64,000 nucleotides of DNA from a virus. Below, piece by piece: positions 1,232 through 28,477 of the stretch. Below the pieces are notes generated by a model that was not told the origin of the DNA, did not search any database, and saw nothing but the letters and a program-made list of their open reading frames with translations. Position numbers and translations under genes: made by a program. The first letter of the stretch is position 1. Each line of letters starts with the position of its first letter. The DNA lies in IMG/VR virus record IMGVR_UViG_3300034358_000008, positions 124,001-188,000 of that record; one strand, given 5' to 3'.

Positions 1232-2818
1232 ATGAAATTCGCTGTAACCAATGTGCAGGGCAATGGGTTTACTCAGGTAAGTGTTACACATGGCGATATT
1301 GAATTGCTATGGAGTGCACGTGCGTACAGTAAGGTTAAACTTCAAGATCCTAATCGGGTCTTCCGGGAGTTGAATGGCTATCTAGAAAACGTTGATGCAC
1401 CTACGCAAGATCGGTTGTTCCACAGCTATGAAGAAATCCACAAGCTGTTCAAGATGGGCTTCGATCCTTCGATGCTCGTTAGCAGTTTGATTCACCACAT
1501 CGGTGAGATCTATAAACAGATCCCAATGAACCGTCTGCGACGTTGGTTGTTGACTATCGGTAACTTGCACATCCCTGCTGATATCCAGGATACCATCACG
1601 GAAGACTCCCGCTATAACAAGCGTGAGCAAACTTATCTGAAGTCCGACTACATCAACATCGCAACTGTAGCCCTAGCTCTCCAAGCTATGATTCCAGTAT
1701 GGGGTGAGTACATTGATCAGTGTACCGATCAAGAGTTGTATAAAGAGAACAACGTAATCGGGTTGGTCTCTGAAACAGAACTGGCCAACTGGCCAATGGG
1801 TGAAGTGGATATGTTGGGGGAAGAGATCCCAACTGTATTCGATAAGCTCGGTGGTTATGTGAAGTATTGCGTTGACGATGAACCATTGTCGTTGGCTCGT
1901 GCTTGGGCAGGTCTGAGTTCCACAGACATTCGTGTGCTACTGCAATCTAAAGTGTTGGTACGTCGTCTGACTATCATTCCACTGAACGATCCAACCAGCC
2001 ACTCGATCGTAGCAAACATCTTCCGTTACGTGATGACTAACCTCACACCAGCAGAACGAAGCACAGCTGATCGTGTAGCGAAGAAACTCCCTGAAGGTGG
2101 CGGTGGCGGTGGTGATGACGAAGATAAAACATCGTTCATTGAATCACACAAAACCAAAGGTCGTATCAGTCCAGGTGACATCGAGGCTTACAACATCGAT
2201 GCAATGGATTATGAATTGCTAGCTGAAGAAGTAGATCCAACGATCTGCAAAACTAAACTGGCCCAGTGTATCAGTTGTATTCAAAGTGTCGGTAACGTAG
2301 AGATCCGTCCACACCAGATCCTGCTAGCACAGTGGGTAATGGCTAAAGCGTTTCCTGCACGAGCTTTCTACCATATCTCCAAACTCCCAGTGAACTACCT
2401 GTTGGCTACATCTCAGGCACTCCTGTGGCATTGGGGTTTCAACGATGCAGCTATCTTGATGCAGGTAGAACCGTTGCGTCATGGGGATCATAACTCCACG
2501 ACTCAACTCAACCAGACTCGTCAGGGTTCTCGTATCGCAAATCGGTTCCGTCCACAACTGGATGAACTGTATCCGCACATGAAACTTCAGAAGACTCCGC
2601 AAAATGGTAATGAGACTCCTAAGCCAGAAAACATGGCTGGTCTCGCGATCAACAACTGTAACCATTCTATCCGTGGCTCAAACTGGGTTTACCATGGACC
2701 AGATAAGTTGTTCAAAGAAGCTAATCAAGTAACCCATAACAAGGTTCTGATCCTTCCGCAGACCATCAAGCACACGATCACTGAAGTTGTGATTCACCTG
2801 GCTCAGATCAATCAGTAA
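1232..2818 (+). CDS. Large conserved phage protein, candidate phiKZ gp68-like RNA polymerase accessory subunit
   Basis: 528 aa, mostly helical by appearance, with an acidic Gly-rich linker (GGGGGGDDEDK) near residue 290 separating two domains. I recognise no catalytic motif. In phiKZ the non-virion RNA polymerase has a fifth subunit, gp68, of about this size, encoded a few genes upstream of the beta and beta' genes (gp71-73, gp74). This gene sits in the matching place, with two large genes between it and the polymerase genes. The assignment rests on length and gene order, not on sequence comparison. Start has an AGAGG ribosome site; the next gene follows after 10 nt. Confidence 0.4.
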   Translation: MKFAVTNVQGNGFTQVSVTHGDIELLWSARAYSKVKLQDPNRVFRELNGYLENVDAPTQDRLFHSYEEIHKLFKMGFDPSMLVSSLIHHIGEIYKQIPMNRLRRWLLTIGNLHIPADIQDTITEDSRYNKREQTYLKSDYINIATVALALQAMIPVWGEYIDQCTDQELYKENNVIGLVSETELANWPMGEVDMLGEEIPTVFDKLGGYVKYCVDDEPLSLARAWAGLSSTDIRVLLQSKVLVRRLTIIPLNDPTSHSIVANIFRYVMTNLTPAERSTADRVAKKLPEGGGGGGDDEDKTSFIESHKTKGRISPGDIEAYNIDAMDYELLAEEVDPTICKTKLAQCISCIQSVGNVEIRPHQILLAQWVMAKAFPARAFYHISKLPVNYLLATSQALLWHWGFNDAAILMQVEPLRHGDHNSTTQLNQTRQGSRIANRFRPQLDELYPHMKLQKTPQNGNETPKPENMAGLAINNCNHSIRGSNWVYHGPDKLFKEANQVTHNKVLILPQTIKHTITEVVIHLAQINQ

Positions 2819-2828
2819 GAGGTTACAC

Positions 2829-4517
2829 ATGCAGCATTTCAACACTGGCGCTACCGTAGGTAACTCTCCAGGCAACACTAAGATTCGTTTTGGTGAGAAT
2901 GGTTTCATTGCAGTTCAGACTGGTACCTATCAGGCTCAATATCTTCGGCCATTTAACCCGAACACTAACGAGAACGTTGTACGTCAACTTCGTGAAGCTA
3001 CTAACGAAGGTCTTAACCTCGGTGTCAGTGCAGTACAAGAGATTGCGGCAAACGTAATCACCCCAGCATCGATGGTTGAAGGCGAGGTAATGATTCCTGA
3101 AGGTTTCACTTCTCGTCGTTTCCGCATTATGTGTCGTGTCTTCGAAGAGCATCCGTTCTTCAAAGGTGCAACTACCCAACGGATCTTCTATGGTTATTCG
3201 GATCACTGCGATGCAACTTTGCAAAGCGGTCTCATGGACCCACGCATGCGGGTTTACTTCAACTCCGAAACCATCGTAGCTGAATCGATCATCAACACGC
3301 CTAACGGTCCTCAGACTCAAGCTAAGATCATCGGCTCTAACCAGATCATCTCTCCGGTGAACATGGTTGGTGGTGACAATGGAATGTTCGCGAAGCCTTC
3401 CAGCTTCCTGATCCGTCCTGAAGATAACTTCAACAAAATGCAAACTCGTGCTGTTGCAGAGAACCTGCAAAAGACTGGTTTGATCGATGTCAAGATCGAT
3501 GCTGAATACGATCACCGCACTATGGTTGGTGAAGGTGGCTCGTTCAAGTATTCGATGCGTAAGGATACTTCTCCAGTTCGTTATCTGTCGAGTTCGTTGA
3601 GTGCATATCAGCATGCTCGTAAAGAGTACAACTCGTCGACTCATGACACTGATGACATCCTGTTCAATCGCGGTACTGATTCTTCGGAAGTATTGTTTGG
3701 TGAAGCTGCGGCAATGTGTCGTAACAGTTCCATCACTAACAACACCTTCCTGCAAGTTCTGCGTGACCACACCGGTTACATGGAAAAGGGTTTTGTATTG
3801 TGGGGTGAGCTGTGTGGCTTGTTCCCAGAACTGATGCAGACCAACGTTGCTCGTTTCGCAATGGATGATGGTCGTAGCATCAAGCAAGTTTCCCATGCTG
3901 GTCAATCCCAGAACTGGAACGGCGCTGACTATACTTCTATCGGTGCATCGCTGTTGGCTCAAACCATTCCATCGATTATGATGGATACGTTCTTGCGTCA
4001 AGTATCGTTCGCTGTAACGAATGGTAATGGTCCGAATGAATATCTGTTCGAGATCCATGGTCAAGCATCTGCCAGTATCATCCGTGGGATTGACATGCGT
4101 CCATATCTGCTGGAGATGGAACGTCGAGTTAAGGTTGACGTACTGCACAACATCACCCGTGGTAACCAACTGCCATTCCGTATCTCTATGATCTCGGACT
4201 TGGCTGGTGAATCGATCATTGACATCTCGATTGGTAACGAAGCAGTAGAACGTTTCGTAGCACCGACCTTTGCTGATAGTCTGTTCTCCCCAGTTATCAC
4301 ACGTAACCATCAGCTATCTAGTAACATCGCTAACGATATTACTTGGTTGGTTAAGAAGGTTATCGATGGTGATAACGATGTTAGTAACTTCAATCAGTTT
4401 AACGCTCAACAGCAAGGCTATCAAGGGTACCAACATCCAGTAGCACAAGCTGCACAATTCAATCCTCAAATCTTTACCGGAGTGAGCAACAATGTCGCCG
4501 ATCTTGGTCTCCTATAA
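2829..4517 (+). CDS. Large conserved phage protein with Gln-rich tail ending ADLGLL
   Basis: 562 aa without recognisable enzymatic motifs. The body is a mixed alpha/beta protein; the last 60 residues are Gln/Asn/Gly rich and end in NNVADLGLL. The following protein ends in GGLGLI, so the two may share a C-terminal docking tip. The last 26 nt overlap the next gene, indicating translational coupling. By gene order it would sit at the place of phiKZ gp69, which I recall being linked to protein import into the phage nucleus; I cannot test that from the sequence, so treat it as a pointer only. Confidence 0.4.
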   Translation: MQHFNTGATVGNSPGNTKIRFGENGFIAVQTGTYQAQYLRPFNPNTNENVVRQLREATNEGLNLGVSAVQEIAANVITPASMVEGEVMIPEGFTSRRFRIMCRVFEEHPFFKGATTQRIFYGYSDHCDATLQSGLMDPRMRVYFNSETIVAESIINTPNGPQTQAKIIGSNQIISPVNMVGGDNGMFAKPSSFLIRPEDNFNKMQTRAVAENLQKTGLIDVKIDAEYDHRTMVGEGGSFKYSMRKDTSPVRYLSSSLSAYQHARKEYNSSTHDTDDILFNRGTDSSEVLFGEAAAMCRNSSITNNTFLQVLRDHTGYMEKGFVLWGELCGLFPELMQTNVARFAMDDGRSIKQVSHAGQSQNWNGADYTSIGASLLAQTIPSIMMDTFLRQVSFAVTNGNGPNEYLFEIHGQASASIIRGIDMRPYLLEMERRVKVDVLHNITRGNQLPFRISMISDLAGESIIDISIGNEAVERFVAPTFADSLFSPVITRNHQLSSNIANDITWLVKKVIDGDNDVSNFNQFNAQQQGYQGYQHPVAQAAQFNPQIFTGVSNNVADLGLL

Positions 4518-12757: not shown

Positions 12758-12961
12758 ATGAGTACATTTCAATTCTGTTGGGGGATCGGTATCTTCCTTT
12801 TGGCGATGATAACCTACAGCTATATCTTTATTAAAGCTTATAAGAAAGCTAAGGGTTATACCTACTACCGTATCTTCCTTGGTCTTTTGCTGTTGGCCAT
12901 TGATCTAGCGTTTATCGGTTGTATGGTGATCATGTATAAAGTGTACGTGGGGTTAGTTTGA
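12758..12961 (+). CDS. Small membrane protein 1 of 6
   Basis: 67 aa with two hydrophobic helices (about 5-27 and 42-63) separated by a short basic loop (KAYKKAKGY). GAGGT ribosome site. First of six consecutive tiny membrane-protein genes. Likely inserts in the host inner membrane. Not recognised. Confidence 0.65.
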   Translation: MSTFQFCWGIGIFLLAMITYSYIFIKAYKKAKGYTYYRIFLGLLLLAIDLAFIGCMVIMYKVYVGLV

Positions 12962-13185
12962 TGGAACTGTTTATAGTACTAAAACTATTCACTATCGTCT
13001 ACGCCTGTGGGTCGGTCATACAGGCCCTGTCGTTCCATCTGGCGATGTTTAAGCCTAGGGACCACCGTTATGCCAAGTACATGCTTGATAGCTTTGTAAT
13101 GTTCTGTCTGAGCCTTGGTGCGTGGTTTGCAGTAAATCTAATAGAAGCTACTTATCTTGAAATGCTTGCGAGGAATGCAGTATGA
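12961..13185 (+). CDS. Small membrane protein 2 of 6
   Basis: 74 aa starting MELFIVLKLF, with two hydrophobic helices (about 3-28 and 45-63). The ATG overlaps the preceding stop (TGATG), so I prefer it to the TTG three bases earlier. Translationally coupled to its neighbours. Confidence 0.6.
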   Translation: MELFIVLKLFTIVYACGSVIQALSFHLAMFKPRDHRYAKYMLDSFVMFCLSLGAWFAVNLIEATYLEMLARNAV

Positions 13186-13406
13186 GTATAGATCTCAATA
13201 TCAAAGTTATCTACGGGTTGATCCCAGTGGTGTGTATTCTGTTAGCCTCCATGGTCTACATGTCGGTGAAGATGAACTCTGGTGTGGCTGATGTCACGGC
13301 AGCTCAATGGAATTGCTTCCGGTATACAACTTGGACTACGGTCGGTACATGTGTATTGTTAGTGATAGCATCGGTTACACTACTAATACGTCAGCAACTG
13401 CAATAG
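13182..13406 (+). CDS. Small membrane protein 3 of 6
   Basis: 74 aa with two hydrophobic helices (about 8-28 and 47-67) joined by a loop of about 18 residues. Starts inside the stop of the previous gene (ATGA overlap). Last gene before an early promoter element. Confidence 0.6.
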   Translation: MSIDLNIKVIYGLIPVVCILLASMVYMSVKMNSGVADVTAAQWNCFRYTTWTTVGTCVLLVIASVTLLIRQQLQ

Positions 13407-13420
13407 AACCCTTTTAAAGG

Positions 13421-13428
13421 GTATATTA
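13421..13428 (+). promoter_or_regulatory. Early promoter element TATATTAC
   Basis: TATATTAC preceded by AAAGGG and followed by GTGAA about 5 nt downstream. It is one of four such sites sharing TATATTACnnnnGTGA. TATATTAC is the early promoter element described for phiKZ, used by the virion RNA polymerase. It would drive the last three small membrane genes. Confidence 0.7.
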
Positions 13429-13453
13429 CGTGGGTGAACTAGAGGAGGTGCAT

Positions 13454-13630
13454 ATGTACGCAATCGTTCTACTTCACACGCTAGTACTGTTGTTGTCAAT
13501 ATGGATGGTATTTATTGGACTTAAGTGTTCAACTCCAGCGCGGGTGGTTTCAATGATACTACTCAGTATCGCACTAATCGCGTTGGATGGATATTCATTC
13601 ATGATGTTCCTAGATACACTTGGAGGTTAG
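13454..13630 (+). CDS. Small membrane protein 4 of 6
   Basis: 58 aa, two hydrophobic helices. Near-perfect ribosome site GAGGAGG 4 nt before ATG 13454; the longer in-frame GTG form at 13430 would include the ribosome site and is rejected. The C-terminal pattern (LLSIALIALDGYSFMMFLDTL) resembles that of the next protein, so the two are probably paralogues. Confidence 0.65.
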   Translation: MYAIVLLHTLVLLLSIWMVFIGLKCSTPARVVSMILLSIALIALDGYSFMMFLDTLGG

Positions 13631-13632
13631 GC

Positions 13633-13782
13633 ATGGCTATTTTAGTTTTGTTCTATGCCGTGGTAGCAGTGTTGTCGCTGGGTATGATGGTCATGGGACG
13701 TTGGTTGACTGTGGCTGGCGTACTGCTATTCCTTCTTGATGGTTGGGCCTTCTGGGAGTTTCTGGAGGTCCTAAAGAGGTGA
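13633..13782 (+). CDS. Small membrane protein 5 of 6
   Basis: 49 aa (MAILVLFYAVVAV...), almost wholly hydrophobic, two helices. The GGAGG site lies in the end of the previous gene. A longer in-frame ORF from 13525 is a shadow. Its end, LLFLLDGWAFWEFLEVL, matches the spacing of LDG-aromatic-x-F-x-x-FL in the preceding protein. Confidence 0.65.
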   Translation: MAILVLFYAVVAVLSLGMMVMGRWLTVAGVLLFLLDGWAFWEFLEVLKR

Positions 13783-13785
13783 TGT

Positions 13786-13998
13786 ATGGAATATCTGCTG
13801 ATGGTCGTTGCACTGGTCTACGGTTTCCTGTTCTTTAAAGCTTTAGGGAGATTGATGATCTGTAACTTTAATATCACGTTGTTTCTAAGTGAGAGCACCT
13901 ATGCCTGGATGGGATTCTTTTTCCTCTTCAATCTGGTTGCACTTATCTTCGCTGGCGGCGGCATGGTTATTAAAGCAATGGTTGATGCAACACTCTGA
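13786..13998 (+). CDS. Small membrane protein 6 of 6
   Basis: 70 aa with two hydrophobic helices (about 3-22 and 41-64). GAGGTG ribosome site; spacing of 3 nt from the preceding stop. Ends the cluster, directly before a strong terminator. Confidence 0.65.
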   Translation: MEYLLMVVALVYGFLFFKALGRLMICNFNITLFLSESTYAWMGFFFLFNLVALIFAGGGMVIKAMVDATL

Positions 13999-22878: not shown

Positions 22879-24984
22879 TTACTTTGGGACTTCAGTTTCT
22901 TTGCTGGCCAGATAGGCTGCGAGGATTACATCCAAGCGTGGTGCCTTGAGGATCTTCTGACCAATCTCCAACACGTTAACTCTGCAACCCGTAAGGTTAA
23001 CACCCAGCTCACGTTTATGGTAATCACTAATGCCTTGGATGGCAGCAGTTTCCATAACCGTTGTTTCACGAGCAATGTTCAGAATCTGACTAACGTTAGG
23101 ATAAGTCGATACAATGTCCAAGTCAGCTACGTGTGTCCAGATCAAGCTCCGATAGTCGGGGAAGTCTTTAACACACTTAACGCCATTAGGACCCGCCATA
23201 TAGGAAGGCAGTGTAACGATCCATCCATCGTGACCTACCACGTATTGATCTAAGTCATGAACCATCTGGTCAGAACTAGATCCAATTACGCATGGTTCTG
23301 GTCGAGCCAAATACCAGAAGTGCATATCGTCAACGAGGCGCTTAGGGTTCGAGTTAAAGTTCTTAAAGTCCGAAGACTTAGAGAACAATGTAATCGATGC
23401 ACCCAAGTCACTGATCTTCTCATCAAGTTGTTCCAGTCGGATACTGTCGATGATGTTGTAGATGCCGTAACGAACCTTGTGGTTCTTCTGCATCTCGATG
23501 TGCCATTCGATCCCGAAGAGATGGTCAGTTTCTGCAAACTTCAACTTACCAAAGTTCAGCTTAAAGCTAACCTTGTAACCAGCGAATACGTTTACACCCC
23601 ACTCGAGTTTATCAACCGATTTCCATACAGGCTCACGGTGTTCTACTTGGTAGGAGTGCTCTTCGAATTCGTAGATAGCCGATACGGTATCATCATCATC
23701 GAAGTCTGGTACGGAATCATCATCCGCGTCTTCGTCCAGTTCTTCCTCATCTTCGTCTTCAACCGCAATAGTCTCGGTTACGGTTTCAGTGGTAACGACG
23801 TCTTCGGATGGATTAGATACACTCCAGTAAGGGTGACTACCCGAACGGTCAGCCATAGACTTGTCGGCATTCTTTAGGAATGCTTTCAGATCGTCTTCTG
23901 TCTTGATCTCAGATTCTTCATCAACGCTCAGTTCTTTACGAAGGATTGCATCCAATGCATAACTGGATTCTTTACCTTTAGCCAGACGAGTTACACGATA
24001 CGTCGACATCGAGTCAATGCACTGGAAGCTAGCTGGAGCTGTAATCCAATGCCATTGGTCTTCTGGACCTTTAGACTTAGTCACACCAGAAGCGGTAGTG
24101 TTCATCGCTTGGTCTTGACGATAGTGGAAGTAACGGAACTGCTTAGGTACAGAAGGATCACTGAATACTTCAGCTGGATCAATCCCATAACGCTCCAACG
24201 TAGCCAAGATTTTGGACATGTCGAAGTCGATGTTCCAGAAAGCAAAGAAGTCAGGCTTCCACTCATGCAAACGTTTCATGCACTGAATAACGATATCGGC
24301 AGGAGACTCAACTACTTCGATTTGGATATTCAGGTTACGTGCTTTACGTAAAGTCACCAACTCAGGAATACGTTCGAGTTCATCAAACGTCTCTTGTACT
24401 GGATCTTTCAGGTCTTCTACCCAATGCTTGAGATAAGCAAGGTAAACATTAGACTTGTGTGTAACAGACATACAGATGATCTGACCATCGTTCTCAGATT
24501 CATAAACGTTGGTTTCAATGTCACCGCCTGCTACGGTGTTACGAGAGATCAATCCCGGATAGGTCGTACGGTAGTCGTTCTTCAAGCAACATACAGAACT
24601 AACGTCAGAGCCATAAAGAAATGGACTGCGACTAAGCTGTCGCATTCTAGGATTAGGTCCCATGCTGTAATCTTTCAATGCTTTCGCTACAGCGTATGGC
24701 ATCTTAGACTGAGTCGTCTTGAACTTACGTAACTGACTCAGTGGCATGTAGTCTTTCTTTTCTTTGTACGGTCTTAACCGTTCTTCTTTGTATACGGCTG
24801 GATCGATATAAAAAGAACGTTCGTAGTTAGGAATCATTTTGATTCGACTAATCCTACGCTTATCCTTAAGGTGAACTACTTCCTTAACGACGTGCATGTC
24901 GTTACGACCACCTTTCTCGTTTACAAAGGTAATGTGTTTGGCTTCAATGCCTACCACATCTTCCTTACTGAATTCTTCGCTCAT
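22879..24984 (-). CDS. Family B DNA polymerase, N-terminal/exonuclease half ending after motif A
   Basis: 701 aa. Exo I is D155-I-E157 (GGDIETN), Exo II is N251-IDF-D255 (FWNIDFD), and Exo III is Y509-NII-D513. An acidic linker lies at about 405-433. Motif A of the polymerase site is D623-IVSTYP (LDIVSTYPN). The protein stops about 70 residues later, so motifs B and C (KxxxNSxYG, DTDS) are absent; the second half must be a separate gene outside the window, as seen in split phage polymerases. Ends at a CCCAAAG site that may extend it. Provides proofreading for phage replication. Confidence 0.85.
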   Translation of the reverse strand: MSEEFSKEDVVGIEAKHITFVNEKGGRNDMHVVKEVVHLKDKRRISRIKMIPNYERSFYIDPAVYKEERLRPYKEKKDYMPLSQLRKFKTTQSKMPYAVAKALKDYSMGPNPRMRQLSRSPFLYGSDVSSVCCLKNDYRTTYPGLISRNTVAGGDIETNVYESENDGQIICMSVTHKSNVYLAYLKHWVEDLKDPVQETFDELERIPELVTLRKARNLNIQIEVVESPADIVIQCMKRLHEWKPDFFAFWNIDFDMSKILATLERYGIDPAEVFSDPSVPKQFRYFHYRQDQAMNTTASGVTKSKGPEDQWHWITAPASFQCIDSMSTYRVTRLAKGKESSYALDAILRKELSVDEESEIKTEDDLKAFLKNADKSMADRSGSHPYWSVSNPSEDVVTTETVTETIAVEDEDEEELDEDADDDSVPDFDDDDTVSAIYEFEEHSYQVEHREPVWKSVDKLEWGVNVFAGYKVSFKLNFGKLKFAETDHLFGIEWHIEMQKNHKVRYGIYNIIDSIRLEQLDEKISDLGASITLFSKSSDFKNFNSNPKRLVDDMHFWYLARPEPCVIGSSSDQMVHDLDQYVVGHDGWIVTLPSYMAGPNGVKCVKDFPDYRSLIWTHVADLDIVSTYPNVSQILNIARETTVMETAAIQGISDYHKRELGVNLTGCRVNVLEIGQKILKAPRLDVILAAYLASKETEVPK
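22882..22888 (-). promoter_or_regulatory. Candidate -1 ribosomal frameshift site CCCAAAG
   Basis: On the minus strand, codons CCA AAG immediately before the polymerase stop form C_CCA_AAG, the canonical X_XXY_YYZ slippery layout (compare lambda GGGAAAG). A -1 slip enters a 124-codon frame that otherwise lacks a start. Confidence 0.55.
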
Positions 24985-25127: not shown

Positions 25128-25201
25128 GTCTAGTCTACATTAGATAAGACTTCTCAAGTATTTCTTAACACAATCTTTATGATTACAATTGAGGATCTCC
25201 C

Positions 25202-26470
25202 ATGTACAATGAAATTATCTCATTAGAGATGCTAGCCATTGGAGCAAAGACACCACTCGTTAAGTTAGTAGAGTCGTACGTGAAAGATGTTCGTTCACTC
25301 TGGACTACCTATCCTAATAACCAACCCACTACTCTGTATGACGACCTGGGTAAGATCAGCTCTAAGTTCATTAAAGATGTTAAACGTACAGTTGGTGCTA
25401 ACATTACCATTGACATGTACAATATCGATGGACCATCAGCAGGAGTCATGTCTGCAATCTGGTTCAATGGACACTCCGGTTCAAGGTATTACAGTGACCC
25501 AGCCTTAAAGATCGTCTCCGATGATAGCGTATCATTACATCAGGTACTTGAACTAGACCTGAAGAACGTAACGGTCAGAGGTACATTGGCAGATGCTCTT
25601 TCGTTTAAACTGTTCTTTACCGACTACATCTTCTTCAATACCAAATTCCTTACGGATAATGAATTTGTTGCAACACTACTGCATGAATTCGGACACATCT
25701 TCAACACGTTCATGACCCTAGGGGATTACGTTTGGTTGAACTACTATCTGACCGATGGCATAGAGATTCTAATGGGTAAGCGTCCTAACAAATTAAAGTT
25801 AGAGATCTTTAACCAACGATGGATTGATGAGAACGTCCCCGAAGATCTTCGAGAAGCGTTCACTAACGATAGAAACGAAGACAATGCTAAACGCGTTATC
25901 TTCAGTGCTCTTAAGAAAGCCCCACGTCATCACCTTACTAATAACCCTATCATGGCTGTACGTCGTGAAGAGCAGCTTGCTGATATGTTCGCTACTCGCC
26001 TAGGTTATGGTAAGTACATGGTGGATGCTAACTATAAGTACGATCGTCAATACGGTGATCCGCAACTGGTTGGTCGTCGTTGGTATGCAGAAACTGCTAA
26101 AGTTCTGGTAAGTCTGGTACTGTTACCCGTAGCGGCTATCGGGATGATTATGTACGACCCATTGATTCACGATGGACTCGTTGCACGTTATGATGACCCG
26201 ATGACTCGTAACGTCAGAATACGACGTGACCTTGTTGCCCAACTCAAAAATCCTGGACCACTTAACCGTGATGCAATCGTTGCCGATATCGATGCAATTG
26301 ATGCCATCATTAAAGAGTATTCCACAAACGCTTCTGTCATTGACAGCTTCGTAAACTTCTTCAGACCCGACATTCGTAAGCAACGACAGAATACTAAGGT
26401 TGAAGATGATTTAGAATCACTCATGCAAAACGACCTGTTCCTACAGGCTCACAAACTCAGTAAACTCTAA
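25202..26470 (+). CDS. HExxH zinc metalloprotease-like virion protein
   Basis: 422 aa. H161-EFG-H165 (LLHEFGHIFN) is a zincin motif, and EEQLADMFATRLGYG (256-270) supplies the glutamate/AD pattern of M48-type and related metallopeptidases. A hydrophobic helix lies at about 294-315. Residues 7-9 form SLE, which fits the S/A/G-x-E cut site of phiKZ-type prohead protease, so the protein may be packaged and trimmed. It opens a run of virion genes (GAGG ribosome site). Role could be in injection, host-wall entry or host-protein cleavage; not determined. Confidence 0.6.
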   Translation: MYNEIISLEMLAIGAKTPLVKLVESYVKDVRSLWTTYPNNQPTTLYDDLGKISSKFIKDVKRTVGANITIDMYNIDGPSAGVMSAIWFNGHSGSRYYSDPALKIVSDDSVSLHQVLELDLKNVTVRGTLADALSFKLFFTDYIFFNTKFLTDNEFVATLLHEFGHIFNTFMTLGDYVWLNYYLTDGIEILMGKRPNKLKLEIFNQRWIDENVPEDLREAFTNDRNEDNAKRVIFSALKKAPRHHLTNNPIMAVRREEQLADMFATRLGYGKYMVDANYKYDRQYGDPQLVGRRWYAETAKVLVSLVLLPVAAIGMIMYDPLIHDGLVARYDDPMTRNVRIRRDLVAQLKNPGPLNRDAIVADIDAIDAIIKEYSTNASVIDSFVNFFRPDIRKQRQNTKVEDDLESLMQNDLFLQAHKLSKL

Positions 26471-26481
26471 GGTACCTTACC

Positions 26482-26922
26482 ATGCGTATTGGTTATGAAA
26501 TTTCGAAATACCTCAAAGAAGTCCGCACTCCAGAAGGCAGTGATCGTGTACTTCGGGCTATGATGGTTGCTAACGCCCTTGGCTACCACTTCCCTATTGA
26601 TCCTGCGAAGTCTGCTATTGACAACGCTGCCGACTTTGCTGACGAAGCGCGTAAGGTAGTGGGCCAGATCAATGAGAACCTTTCTCTGGATTCTAAGCTT
26701 GCTCTGGAACTGTTCAAGCAAGTCATTGCAATCCGTCATGAACTGATTGTTGGGGGCTGTGACATCTCGATCATGGAAGCTGCCATGCGCTCCCATACCG
26801 CTGATCAACATCAGACTGGCGCTGAGACTGTAGCTGCTACATCCCTGCTCACTAACCTTGAGTTCATGCGTGCACAGAATGGTATTCGTTCCGTTCTGCA
26901 ATCGCTCGGCACCGAAGGCTAA
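26482..26922 (+). CDS. Hypothetical helical protein
   Basis: 146 aa, almost all helical, with no motif I recognise. GTACC(T)TACC precedes the ATG without a strong ribosome site; translation may couple to the protease gene 11 nt upstream. Placed between the protease-like and inner-head-type genes, so a virion role is plausible. Confidence 0.5.
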   Translation: MRIGYEISKYLKEVRTPEGSDRVLRAMMVANALGYHFPIDPAKSAIDNAADFADEARKVVGQINENLSLDSKLALELFKQVIAIRHELIVGGCDISIMEAAMRSHTADQHQTGAETVAATSLLTNLEFMRAQNGIRSVLQSLGTEG

Positions 26923-26933
26923 GGGAGTAGGCT

Positions 26934-27236
26934 ATGGATACCAGTGATGACACAATCCGACATCCTCGTATTACTAAAGCCACCGCTAAAGCTCTTATCG
27001 CCATGGAGAAGATCATCATTGATACTGATATGTCAGTGGTGATCTGTATGGTCAGACTTACTAATGGTCAACGATTGGTTGCGGATGCAATCGTCGCTAA
27101 CTATAAAACGTTTGATCCTGAACGCGGAACACAAATCGCACGAGCCAAGATTATCGATGAGATCATCAGGCTTGAAATGTATGACCTTCGAAAGAAGCTA
27201 CATGAGCAAAAAACTAAAGGAGGTCGGCAATGCTGA
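26934..27236 (+). CDS. Phage gp49/gp66-like small protein
   Basis: 100 aa. The pattern ITKATAKALIAMEK ... VCxVRLTNGQRLVAD ... NYKTFDPERGTQIA ... IIDEIIRLEMYDLR matches, by eye, the Phage_gp49_66 family (N4 gp49/Sf6 gp66), small proteins with a conserved F-D-x-E-x-G-x-x-I-A core. Function of the family is unknown. Its stop overlaps the next start by 7 nt. Family assignment is from memory of the pattern. Confidence 0.55.
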   Translation: MDTSDDTIRHPRITKATAKALIAMEKIIIDTDMSVVICMVRLTNGQRLVADAIVANYKTFDPERGTQIARAKIIDEIIRLEMYDLRKKLHEQKTKGGRQC

Positions 27237-28477
27237 CTGAAACAGAAATTCTGGACGAACAAGTCCAAACTCTTGACGAAGCATTGGATAAGCTGGAAGA
27301 ACATTCTGCTGAACCCATCACTCCGAATGAGCTAGGTGACGTTGACGCCGGTCATGCATTGTCCGTTACCGTTGAATGCCTTAAAGCTACTCGTGATCTT
27401 TACCACACCATCTCCCAAGAAGGTGTATCTGCTGCTGACGTTCAAGCTCTACGCAGTATTCGTGATCGGATGTCGCCGTATATGACCCTGACTCCAAAGG
27501 TTGCTTTGGAAGCTTATGAAGGGATGTTTACGCCTAATCGTAGTATGATTAACCAAGTCATTTCGCAAGAAGCTACTCTGGCTGAAATCGGTACTACGCT
27601 TAAGGAATGGTTCTTCAAGTTCTTGGACTTCGTGATCAAGATCGTTGACTGGTGTCGTGTTGTATGGAACTCGGAAGAAGCAGTACGCATTCGACTGAAG
27701 GCTCTAGACTCTAACCTGCAAAGCATGTACAACGCATTCGATGATTGCTTGGTACGTAACAAGTTGGCAGGTGTGGACATGTTGCCACAACTGACTGCTA
27801 TCGCTAAGGTAGTGTTGACCGATCCTAAATTGACTCGTTCTGAAGCTATGTTGATTGCATTTGGCCTGAAAGGTCATGACTCGGTTATTGTCCATGGTGA
27901 CAAAGACATCGACTACACCTTTAACTTGCTTATGAAAGATGTGGCTTCTCTGAAGACCCACGTTGAACAGAACAAGCCAATGGCAGTTGGTATTGACTTC
28001 GCTACTGATCTCCATGTAACTGCTGAAGCAATGGAAGAACTGTTGGTTGCTACCGACGAAGTAGATTTCTTCTTTGATCATCTCGGCACTGAGTTCTGGA
28101 TGCATCCGAAGCGTTTGGTGGGTCGTCCTATCTATGCTCCATCGCACAACATCCTTCAAGTACAACGTCTGGCTAAAGAGTTCCGTACTATCAAACGTAA
28201 CGTGAACTTTGATAACCTCAAAGAAGTAGACATCTTGGTACAGACCGTAGAGAATATCTCGGGTTGTGTTCAAGGGTTGGAACGAGTGATTGCCTTTAAG
28301 CAAAAGCTGTACGGTGATTACTATAAGGCCTCCGCTACAATGGCTAACTTCTATATCCGTGGTCGTGATGTCCTGATTGACCAGATCGCTAAGAATGGTG
28401 ATGAAGACATTAACCGTGTGGTATTGACCAAGCTTAATAAAGTTTGGGATGAGATCCTCAAGAAGATGGGTATGTAA
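27230..28477 (+). CDS. Inner-head/ejection-type protein with prohead cleavage site
   Basis: 415 aa. Acidic N-terminal region, then VALE at residues 91-94, which fits the S/A/G-x-E site cut by phiKZ-type prohead protease (gp175). Downstream is an amphipathic hydrophobic segment (LKEWFFKFLDFVIKIVDW, about 119-136) and a long helical C-terminal domain. The same order of parts recurs in five proteins between 36.5 and 45.2 kb. In phiKZ such proteins form the inner body and are injected. Assignment by architecture. Confidence 0.55.
   Translation: MLTETEILDEQVQTLDEALDKLEEHSAEPITPNELGDVDAGHALSVTVECLKATRDLYHTISQEGVSAADVQALRSIRDRMSPYMTLTPKVALEAYEGMFTPNRSMINQVISQEATLAEIGTTLKEWFFKFLDFVIKIVDWCRVVWNSEEAVRIRLKALDSNLQSMYNAFDDCLVRNKLAGVDMLPQLTAIAKVVLTDPKLTRSEAMLIAFGLKGHDSVIVHGDKDIDYTFNLLMKDVASLKTHVEQNKPMAVGIDFATDLHVTAEAMEELLVATDEVDFFFDHLGTEFWMHPKRLVGRPIYAPSHNILQVQRLAKEFRTIKRNVNFDNLKEVDILVQTVENISGCVQGLERVIAFKQKLYGDYYKASATMANFYIRGRDVLIDQIAKNGDEDINRVVLTKLNKVWDEILKKMGM

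Follow-up and report, generated by a model that had tools for sequence, protein, structure and literature searches.

By sequence comparison, the open reading frame (ORF) at positions 25202-26470 (+) of the window, the 64,000-nucleotide stretch of viral DNA analyzed here (bases 124001-188000 of a 324,912-base virus record), is an orthologue of phiKZ gp84, 201phi2-1 gp145 and SPN3US gp45. It is a real feature and a further member of the known phiKZ gp84 family, which, by analogy with its studied members, is a conserved part of phiKZ-like phage heads. We give an even chance to the reading that its product is a head-packaged, M48-like zinc protease that would lose a propeptide, be ejected with the DNA, insert into a membrane and cleave a membrane-near substrate.

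The ORF begins with ATG, is preceded by a ribosome-binding-like GAGG at 25191-25194 and encodes 422 amino acids; we describe the product as a phiKZ gp84-like head protein and M48-like zincin on the strength of the ORF call, PHROG 2767 and a 27-sequence alignment. From the N terminus, the protein carries a predicted propeptide (residues 1-9; 25202-25228, +) ending in SLE (residues 7-9; 25220-25228), then HEFGH (residues 161-165; 25682-25696, +), which by homology supplies two zinc ligands and the catalytic Glu. These are followed by EEQLADMFA (residues 256-264; 25967-25993, +), with E257 as predicted third zinc ligand and an invariant D261, and by a conserved hydrophobic segment (residues 299-317; 26096-26152, +) that may form a membrane hairpin. 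The match to the PHROG 2767 profile was full-length (residues 3-422; E 7e-88), and all 57 members of a 57-sequence alignment matched the same profile. When the 324,912-base record was searched for additional copies, a single match came back, and an Rfam scan of the window gave no match.

Of 50,697 phage records, 186 matched the protein at E <=0.01 and 230 at E <=10. The nearest named phage was Pseudomonas phage Viktualia (56% identity), one IMG/VR contig reached 84%, and the orthologues 201phi2-1 gp145, PhiPA3 086 and phiKZ PHIKZ084 were 52%, 43% and 33% identical, respectively. A scan of genome contigs with an alignment of Pseudomonas-phage members found no relative. An equivalent scan with an Erwinia-phage alignment turned up three contigs, which belong to metagenome-assembled genomes of bacteria (Thalassovita, Sulfuriferula and Rhodoferax), two of them 216-245 kb long, which may be binned jumbo-phage DNA and not host genes.

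The gene sits in a conserved block consisting of a divergent DNA polymerase gene (-) upstream, the gp84-type gene, gp85 and gp86. In the window, these neighbors are a phiKZ gp82-like DNA polymerase that marks the block (22879-24984, -; PHROG 3011, E 5e-226), a phiKZ gp85-like vertex-binding protein (26482-26922, +; PF25615, E 4e-54) and a phiKZ gp86-like vertex-binding protein (27230-28477, +; PF25617, E 2e-116). Nearly all relatives have a gp85-type gene of about 145 codons next downstream, then gp86 or its positional counterpart. Departures were seen in BONAISHI, which is without the small gp85-type gene, in Yong XC31, where that gene is longer, and in phiKZ, which has its polymerase on the + strand and one more gene between polymerase and gp84. 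The location had earlier been called unusual for a zincin, lying beside phage virion genes. That reading is ruled out by the relatives viewed, in which the same block is occupied; since the block is conserved, to find a zincin next to virion genes is normal for the phiKZ-like group. Several other features of the region were recorded. The polymerase ORF encodes 701 amino acids, longer than the 576 positions of its PHROG profile, and includes a long, strongly acidic stretch with runs of D and E. A small Phage_gp49_66-family gene (26934-27236, +) lies between gp85 and gp86; a gene of similar size occupies this place in several Pseudomonas phages (gp147 in 201phi2-1, for instance) and is missing from it in phiKZ. 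A run of about six small ORFs (66-85 amino acids) at 12758-13998 (+), immediately downstream of a helicase-like ORF, encodes products that look hydrophobic and rich in membrane helices.

The protein bears a gluzincin motif, HExxH with a downstream Glu in an E-x-x-A-D context. Given the protein's own composition, 0.006 occurrences of HExxH would be expected over its 422 residues, which rules out chance as the source of the zinc motif. In the 27-sequence alignment (window protein included), whose members are as little as 14% identical to the window protein, E9, H161, E162, H165, E257 and D261 were invariant (27/27). Across a broader set of 106 relatives, H161, E162, H165, E257 and D261 were kept in every one and A260 was replaced by S in 17; this count is partly a product of selection because 80 loci (L047-L126) were collected by a scan able to draw on HExGH or ExxxD patterns, whereas the count of 27 is independent of that scan. 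In assembling the set of 106, 14 identical sequences were merged and two loci (L004, L005) were counted in two start variants. A frameshifted match (L103), a fragment (L125) and an N-terminally truncated call (L046) were dropped. Another fragment (L035) and four loci on the same contigs as others (L038, L039, L041, L042) never entered, and the three metagenome-bin contigs and a Bacillus phage AR9 protein, found later, are also outside it. A profile built from the full 27-sequence set proved too diverse to serve in pattern scans.

Profile and fold comparisons point to kinship with M48 gluzincins of the Ste24/ZMPSTE24 type. Searched against the PDB, the 57-member profile matched human ZMPSTE24 at E 4e-5, and by counting along the alignment HExGH falls on ZMPSTE24 residues 335-339 and E257 on its E415, which we take to be the zinc ligands of that enzyme. 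Pfam M48 (PF01435) matched 19 of the 57 alignment members at E <=0.1 (best 7e-5) and gave no match for the window protein; because it falls short of the curated family cut-off, we say that the protein would work like an M48 and do not file it as a Pfam M48 member. Queried alone against Pfam and NCBIfam, the window protein gave sub-threshold matches only (M43, E 0.37; M3, E 0.065), and a single-protein sequence search of the PDB found nothing at E <=10. The AlphaFold2 model had mean pLDDT 79 and pTM 0.79. With the structure aligner VIA, the first eight rows for the whole model were all M48 and the next row had Z 4.3; Ste24p scored Z 8.1 (rmsd 10.2 A over 188 residues) and BepA Z 6.9 (4.1 A over 138), where by the aligner's own guidance a Z under 8 may reflect merely a common arrangement. 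The domain alone gave Z 8.6 for both Ste24p and ZMPSTE24, with the next non-M48 row at 3.6. Rmsd values for the Ste24 types were high, about 8-11 A, and Foldseek by itself was weak (ZMPSTE24 at E 0.17 and 0.53). Given that guidance on Z, we regard the fold evidence as moderate and as drawing its force from its concordance with the sequence profile. The top matches among predicted viral structures included virion structural proteins of the phiKZ-like group and also the AR9 "zincin protease." In the annotation of Serratia phage Moabite, gp313 is an M48 protease, with HtpX as its HHpred match and phiKZ084 as a BLAST match.

The zincin layout proposed in the earlier note is therefore confirmed as M48-type gluzincin by invariant residues (27/27) together with profile and structure matches. 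That the motif is instead an accident in an unrelated protein is scarcely credible. The window protein by itself is without a significant Pfam match, as such an accident would predict, but conservation of the motif and the profile and fold matches to M48 speak against it, and we rejected this explanation on the conservation of both the zinc site and the N-terminal [SAG]xE.

The second element is a putative processing site. By composition, [SAG]xE is expected 0.2 times among the 30 N-terminal residues; taken by itself, SLE therefore says little and needs support from relatives. Such support was found. E9 is one of 12 invariant columns in the 27-sequence alignment and coincides with E20 of ASE-20 in SPN3US; the putative site in phiKZ is SNE-10. 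Over the 106 non-identical sequences, this Glu is kept in 105 and [SAG]xE in 97, the exceptions being VFE, VQE (three), IQE, TME (two), ITE and GLQ. When sequences were clustered at 50% identity, column 9 held [SAG]xE in 57/62 clusters, and the next best column in 36/62. Across residues 1-8 of the AlphaFold2 model, pLDDT stays below 50.

For SPN3US gp45, the published study gives the entry "Head, unknown function" and a cut, proven by mass spectrometry, at ASE-20 (PMC10052503, Table 2). We equate gp45 with ACQ60_gp221 because gp47, described as the positional equivalent of phiKZ gp86 (PMC5694885), is two genes downstream in the record; in agreement, residues 18-20 of the ACQ60_gp221 ORF are ASE. 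The same study states that seven cleaved SPN3US head proteins have phiKZ and 201phi2-1 counterparts, that only gp47 and gp225 are without them, and that the phiKZ counterparts of the seven are all cleaved (PMC10052503). As only gp47 and gp225 lack counterparts, gp45 is among the seven, and its phiKZ homologue is covered as cleaved. With respect to propeptide length, that report gives 20 and 24 residues for gp45 and gp225 in its Results and the reverse in its Discussion; its Table 2 and the sequence support 20 residues for gp45.

The phage also encodes a candidate enzyme for this cut, a prohead protease 59% identical to phiKZ gp175 at record positions 254910-255740. A Pfam S77 search for the prohead protease gave no match, and its positive controls were unmatched too. 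A further likely site in the window, SQE-114 of the gp86 homologue, is the counterpart of SQE-113 in 201phi2-1 gp148, which is reported as processed (PMC5694885). Collectively, alignment of SLE with the proven ASE-20 cut of SPN3US gp45 upholds the earlier suggestion of an N-terminal prohead cleavage site, and the window protein is a putative substrate of a phiKZ-type prohead protease (S80).

Support for packaging in virions, also proposed earlier, comes through the orthologues: 201phi2-1 gp145 is identified in its record as a virion protein by mass spectrometry, PHIKZ084 is annotated as a structural head protein in the phiKZ record, and SPN3US gp45 is a head protein. Zinc site, cut and virion location are in this way drawn from sequence or from published data on orthologues.

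A protease packaged and itself processed during head assembly in relatives, and encoded by a gene conserved across the phiKZ-like group, might simply be a second head-maturation protease, one that processes other virion proteins within the prohead and has no role to play in the host. This role is in print as a suggestion for AMR59696.1, which its source describes as a zincin-like metallopeptidase, conserved in group 1 jumbo phages and uncharacterised (PMC7824862); the accession is that of SEGD1_047, the counterpart of the window gene in the same genomic position. We nonetheless consider this role rather unlikely. Fourteen SPN3US cleavage sites are attributed to gp245 (PMC10052503), a semi-tryptic search of phiKZ corroborated one motif, S/A/G-X-E (PMC10449902), and these reports, as far as available, describe no second cleavage specificity for SPN3US or phiKZ. 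Work inside a prohead would, moreover, need no conserved hydrophobic segment.

That segment was measured on the Kyte-Doolittle scale. The highest Kyte-Doolittle 19-mer mean within residues 270-330 is at least 1.6 in 100 of the 106 relatives (minimum 1.46, median 2.25), and a 19-mer of that value occurs elsewhere in the protein in 2 of them. Among 24 other + strand ORFs chosen from the window, 3 reach 1.6 and none reaches the 2.29 of this protein. In many relatives the hydrophobic stretch is perhaps long enough for a hairpin (linker of 56-95 residues). Model confidence is middling here (pLDDT blocks 56-77), and the segment could instead pack inside the protein. By the Kyte-Doolittle measure, a conserved segment of membrane grade thus follows just after the zinc site, which suggests that gp84-type proteins are membrane-anchored proteases. 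We found no description of a membrane segment in a gp84-type protein in the open-licence papers searched.

The genomic neighborhood lends itself to another interpretation, in which the protein is a structural head component, with a zinc-stabilized or inactive zincin fold, located at vertices with gp85 and gp86. Adjacent genes do encode vertex-binding head proteins in a conserved order, and this would fit a shell role and counts against an ejected protease. A structural fold does not require the catalytic Glu, yet E162 is kept in 27/27 sequences and in 106/106 (the latter partly motif-selected), and we regard a purely structural role as quite improbable.

We therefore return to the head-packaged, ejected protease as the best explanation; an invariant catalytic Glu and a hydrophobic segment of membrane grade count in its favor. 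According to this model, the phiKZ gp84/SPN3US gp45 orthologue would be a zinc protease that is packaged in the head, has a catalytic site of M48 (Ste24-like) type and uses its first nine residues as a short capsid-targeting propeptide. The prohead protease (gp175 homologue) would remove the propeptide after SLE-9 inside the prohead, and the mature protein (residues 10-422) would remain in the head, most likely leaving it with the DNA. The hydrophobic segment would then enter a membrane, either the inner one of the host or that of the early infection vesicle, and the protease would cleave a membrane-near substrate there. Activity, ejection, membrane insertion and the existence of such a substrate are what we infer from the combined evidence; ejection into the host, also part of the earlier note, is compatible with that evidence and is put forward as a proposal. 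The early infection vesicle is reported to be membrane-bound and to contain injected virion proteins (PMC12908238). A phiKZ injection study validated eight injected proteins, and gp84 is unnamed in its main text (PMC10449902). Our search for reports of activity, zinc binding or ejection found none for any gp84-family member.

A more specific and unlikely version of this model is that nucleus-forming jumbo phages have a Ste24-like virion membrane protease, armed or addressed in the head by loss of its propeptide and ejected with the DNA, that anchors in the inner membrane of the host. Its target would be a membrane protein, of host or phage origin, on which formation, opening or protection of the membrane-bound early infection vesicle depends. 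If true, the vesicle would possess, from the first minute of infection on, an enzyme capable of acting on membrane proteins.

Both halves of the initial idea, the zincin call and head cleavage, are in print for relatives in separate places. In the literature found, as far as its text was available, two published lines that meet here, a zincin prediction and proven head processing, were unjoined. Our analysis adds their union, a family-wide alignment of the cut site and the hydrophobic segment. The earlier reading proved mostly correct as to mechanism and mistaken as to rarity. The conserved segment turns both lines into the testable idea of a virion-delivered membrane protease, which bears on how phiKZ-like phages build the membrane-bound early infection vesicle, for which a review describes the channels as still to be identified (PMC12908238).

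Compared with known systems, the protein is closest to phiKZ gp84, 201phi2-1 gp145 and PhiPA3 gp086, orthologues annotated as virion proteins that are 33-52% identical over nearly their full length and lie in the same gene block; besides the phiKZ polymerase arrangement, only sequence divergence was seen. SPN3US gp45 and SEGD1_047 occupy the same locus in their phages. SPN3US gp45 has identical zinc-site residues, yet is 22% identical in the 27-sequence alignment and has a propeptide of 20 residues as opposed to 9 predicted for the window protein. The gp45 propeptide has been compared with the short capsid-targeting sequences of T4 (PMC5694885), to which the nine-residue predicted propeptide is close in length. 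Bacillus phage AR9 has up to three zincin-like ORFs (L146 at 2284-3561, and others at positions of about 93000 and 23500), one annotated as zincin protease and one above the Pfam M48 cut-off. AR9 gp051, the "zincin protease," shares HExxH, the Glu and AD and gives a weak profile match, but is without [SAG]xE near its N terminus, has an insert between HExxH and Glu and different gene neighbors and, by eye, shows no matching hydrophobic region after the Glu. Among cellular enzymes, the M48 peptidases Ste24p/ZMPSTE24, BepA and HtpX likewise combine HExxH with a downstream E..AD and are the best fold matches. In contrast to these peptidases, gp84-type proteins are virion proteins with a propeptide, and 85-97 residues separate their last His from the Glu. 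They have one hydrophobic region after that Glu, where Ste24 crosses the membrane several times.
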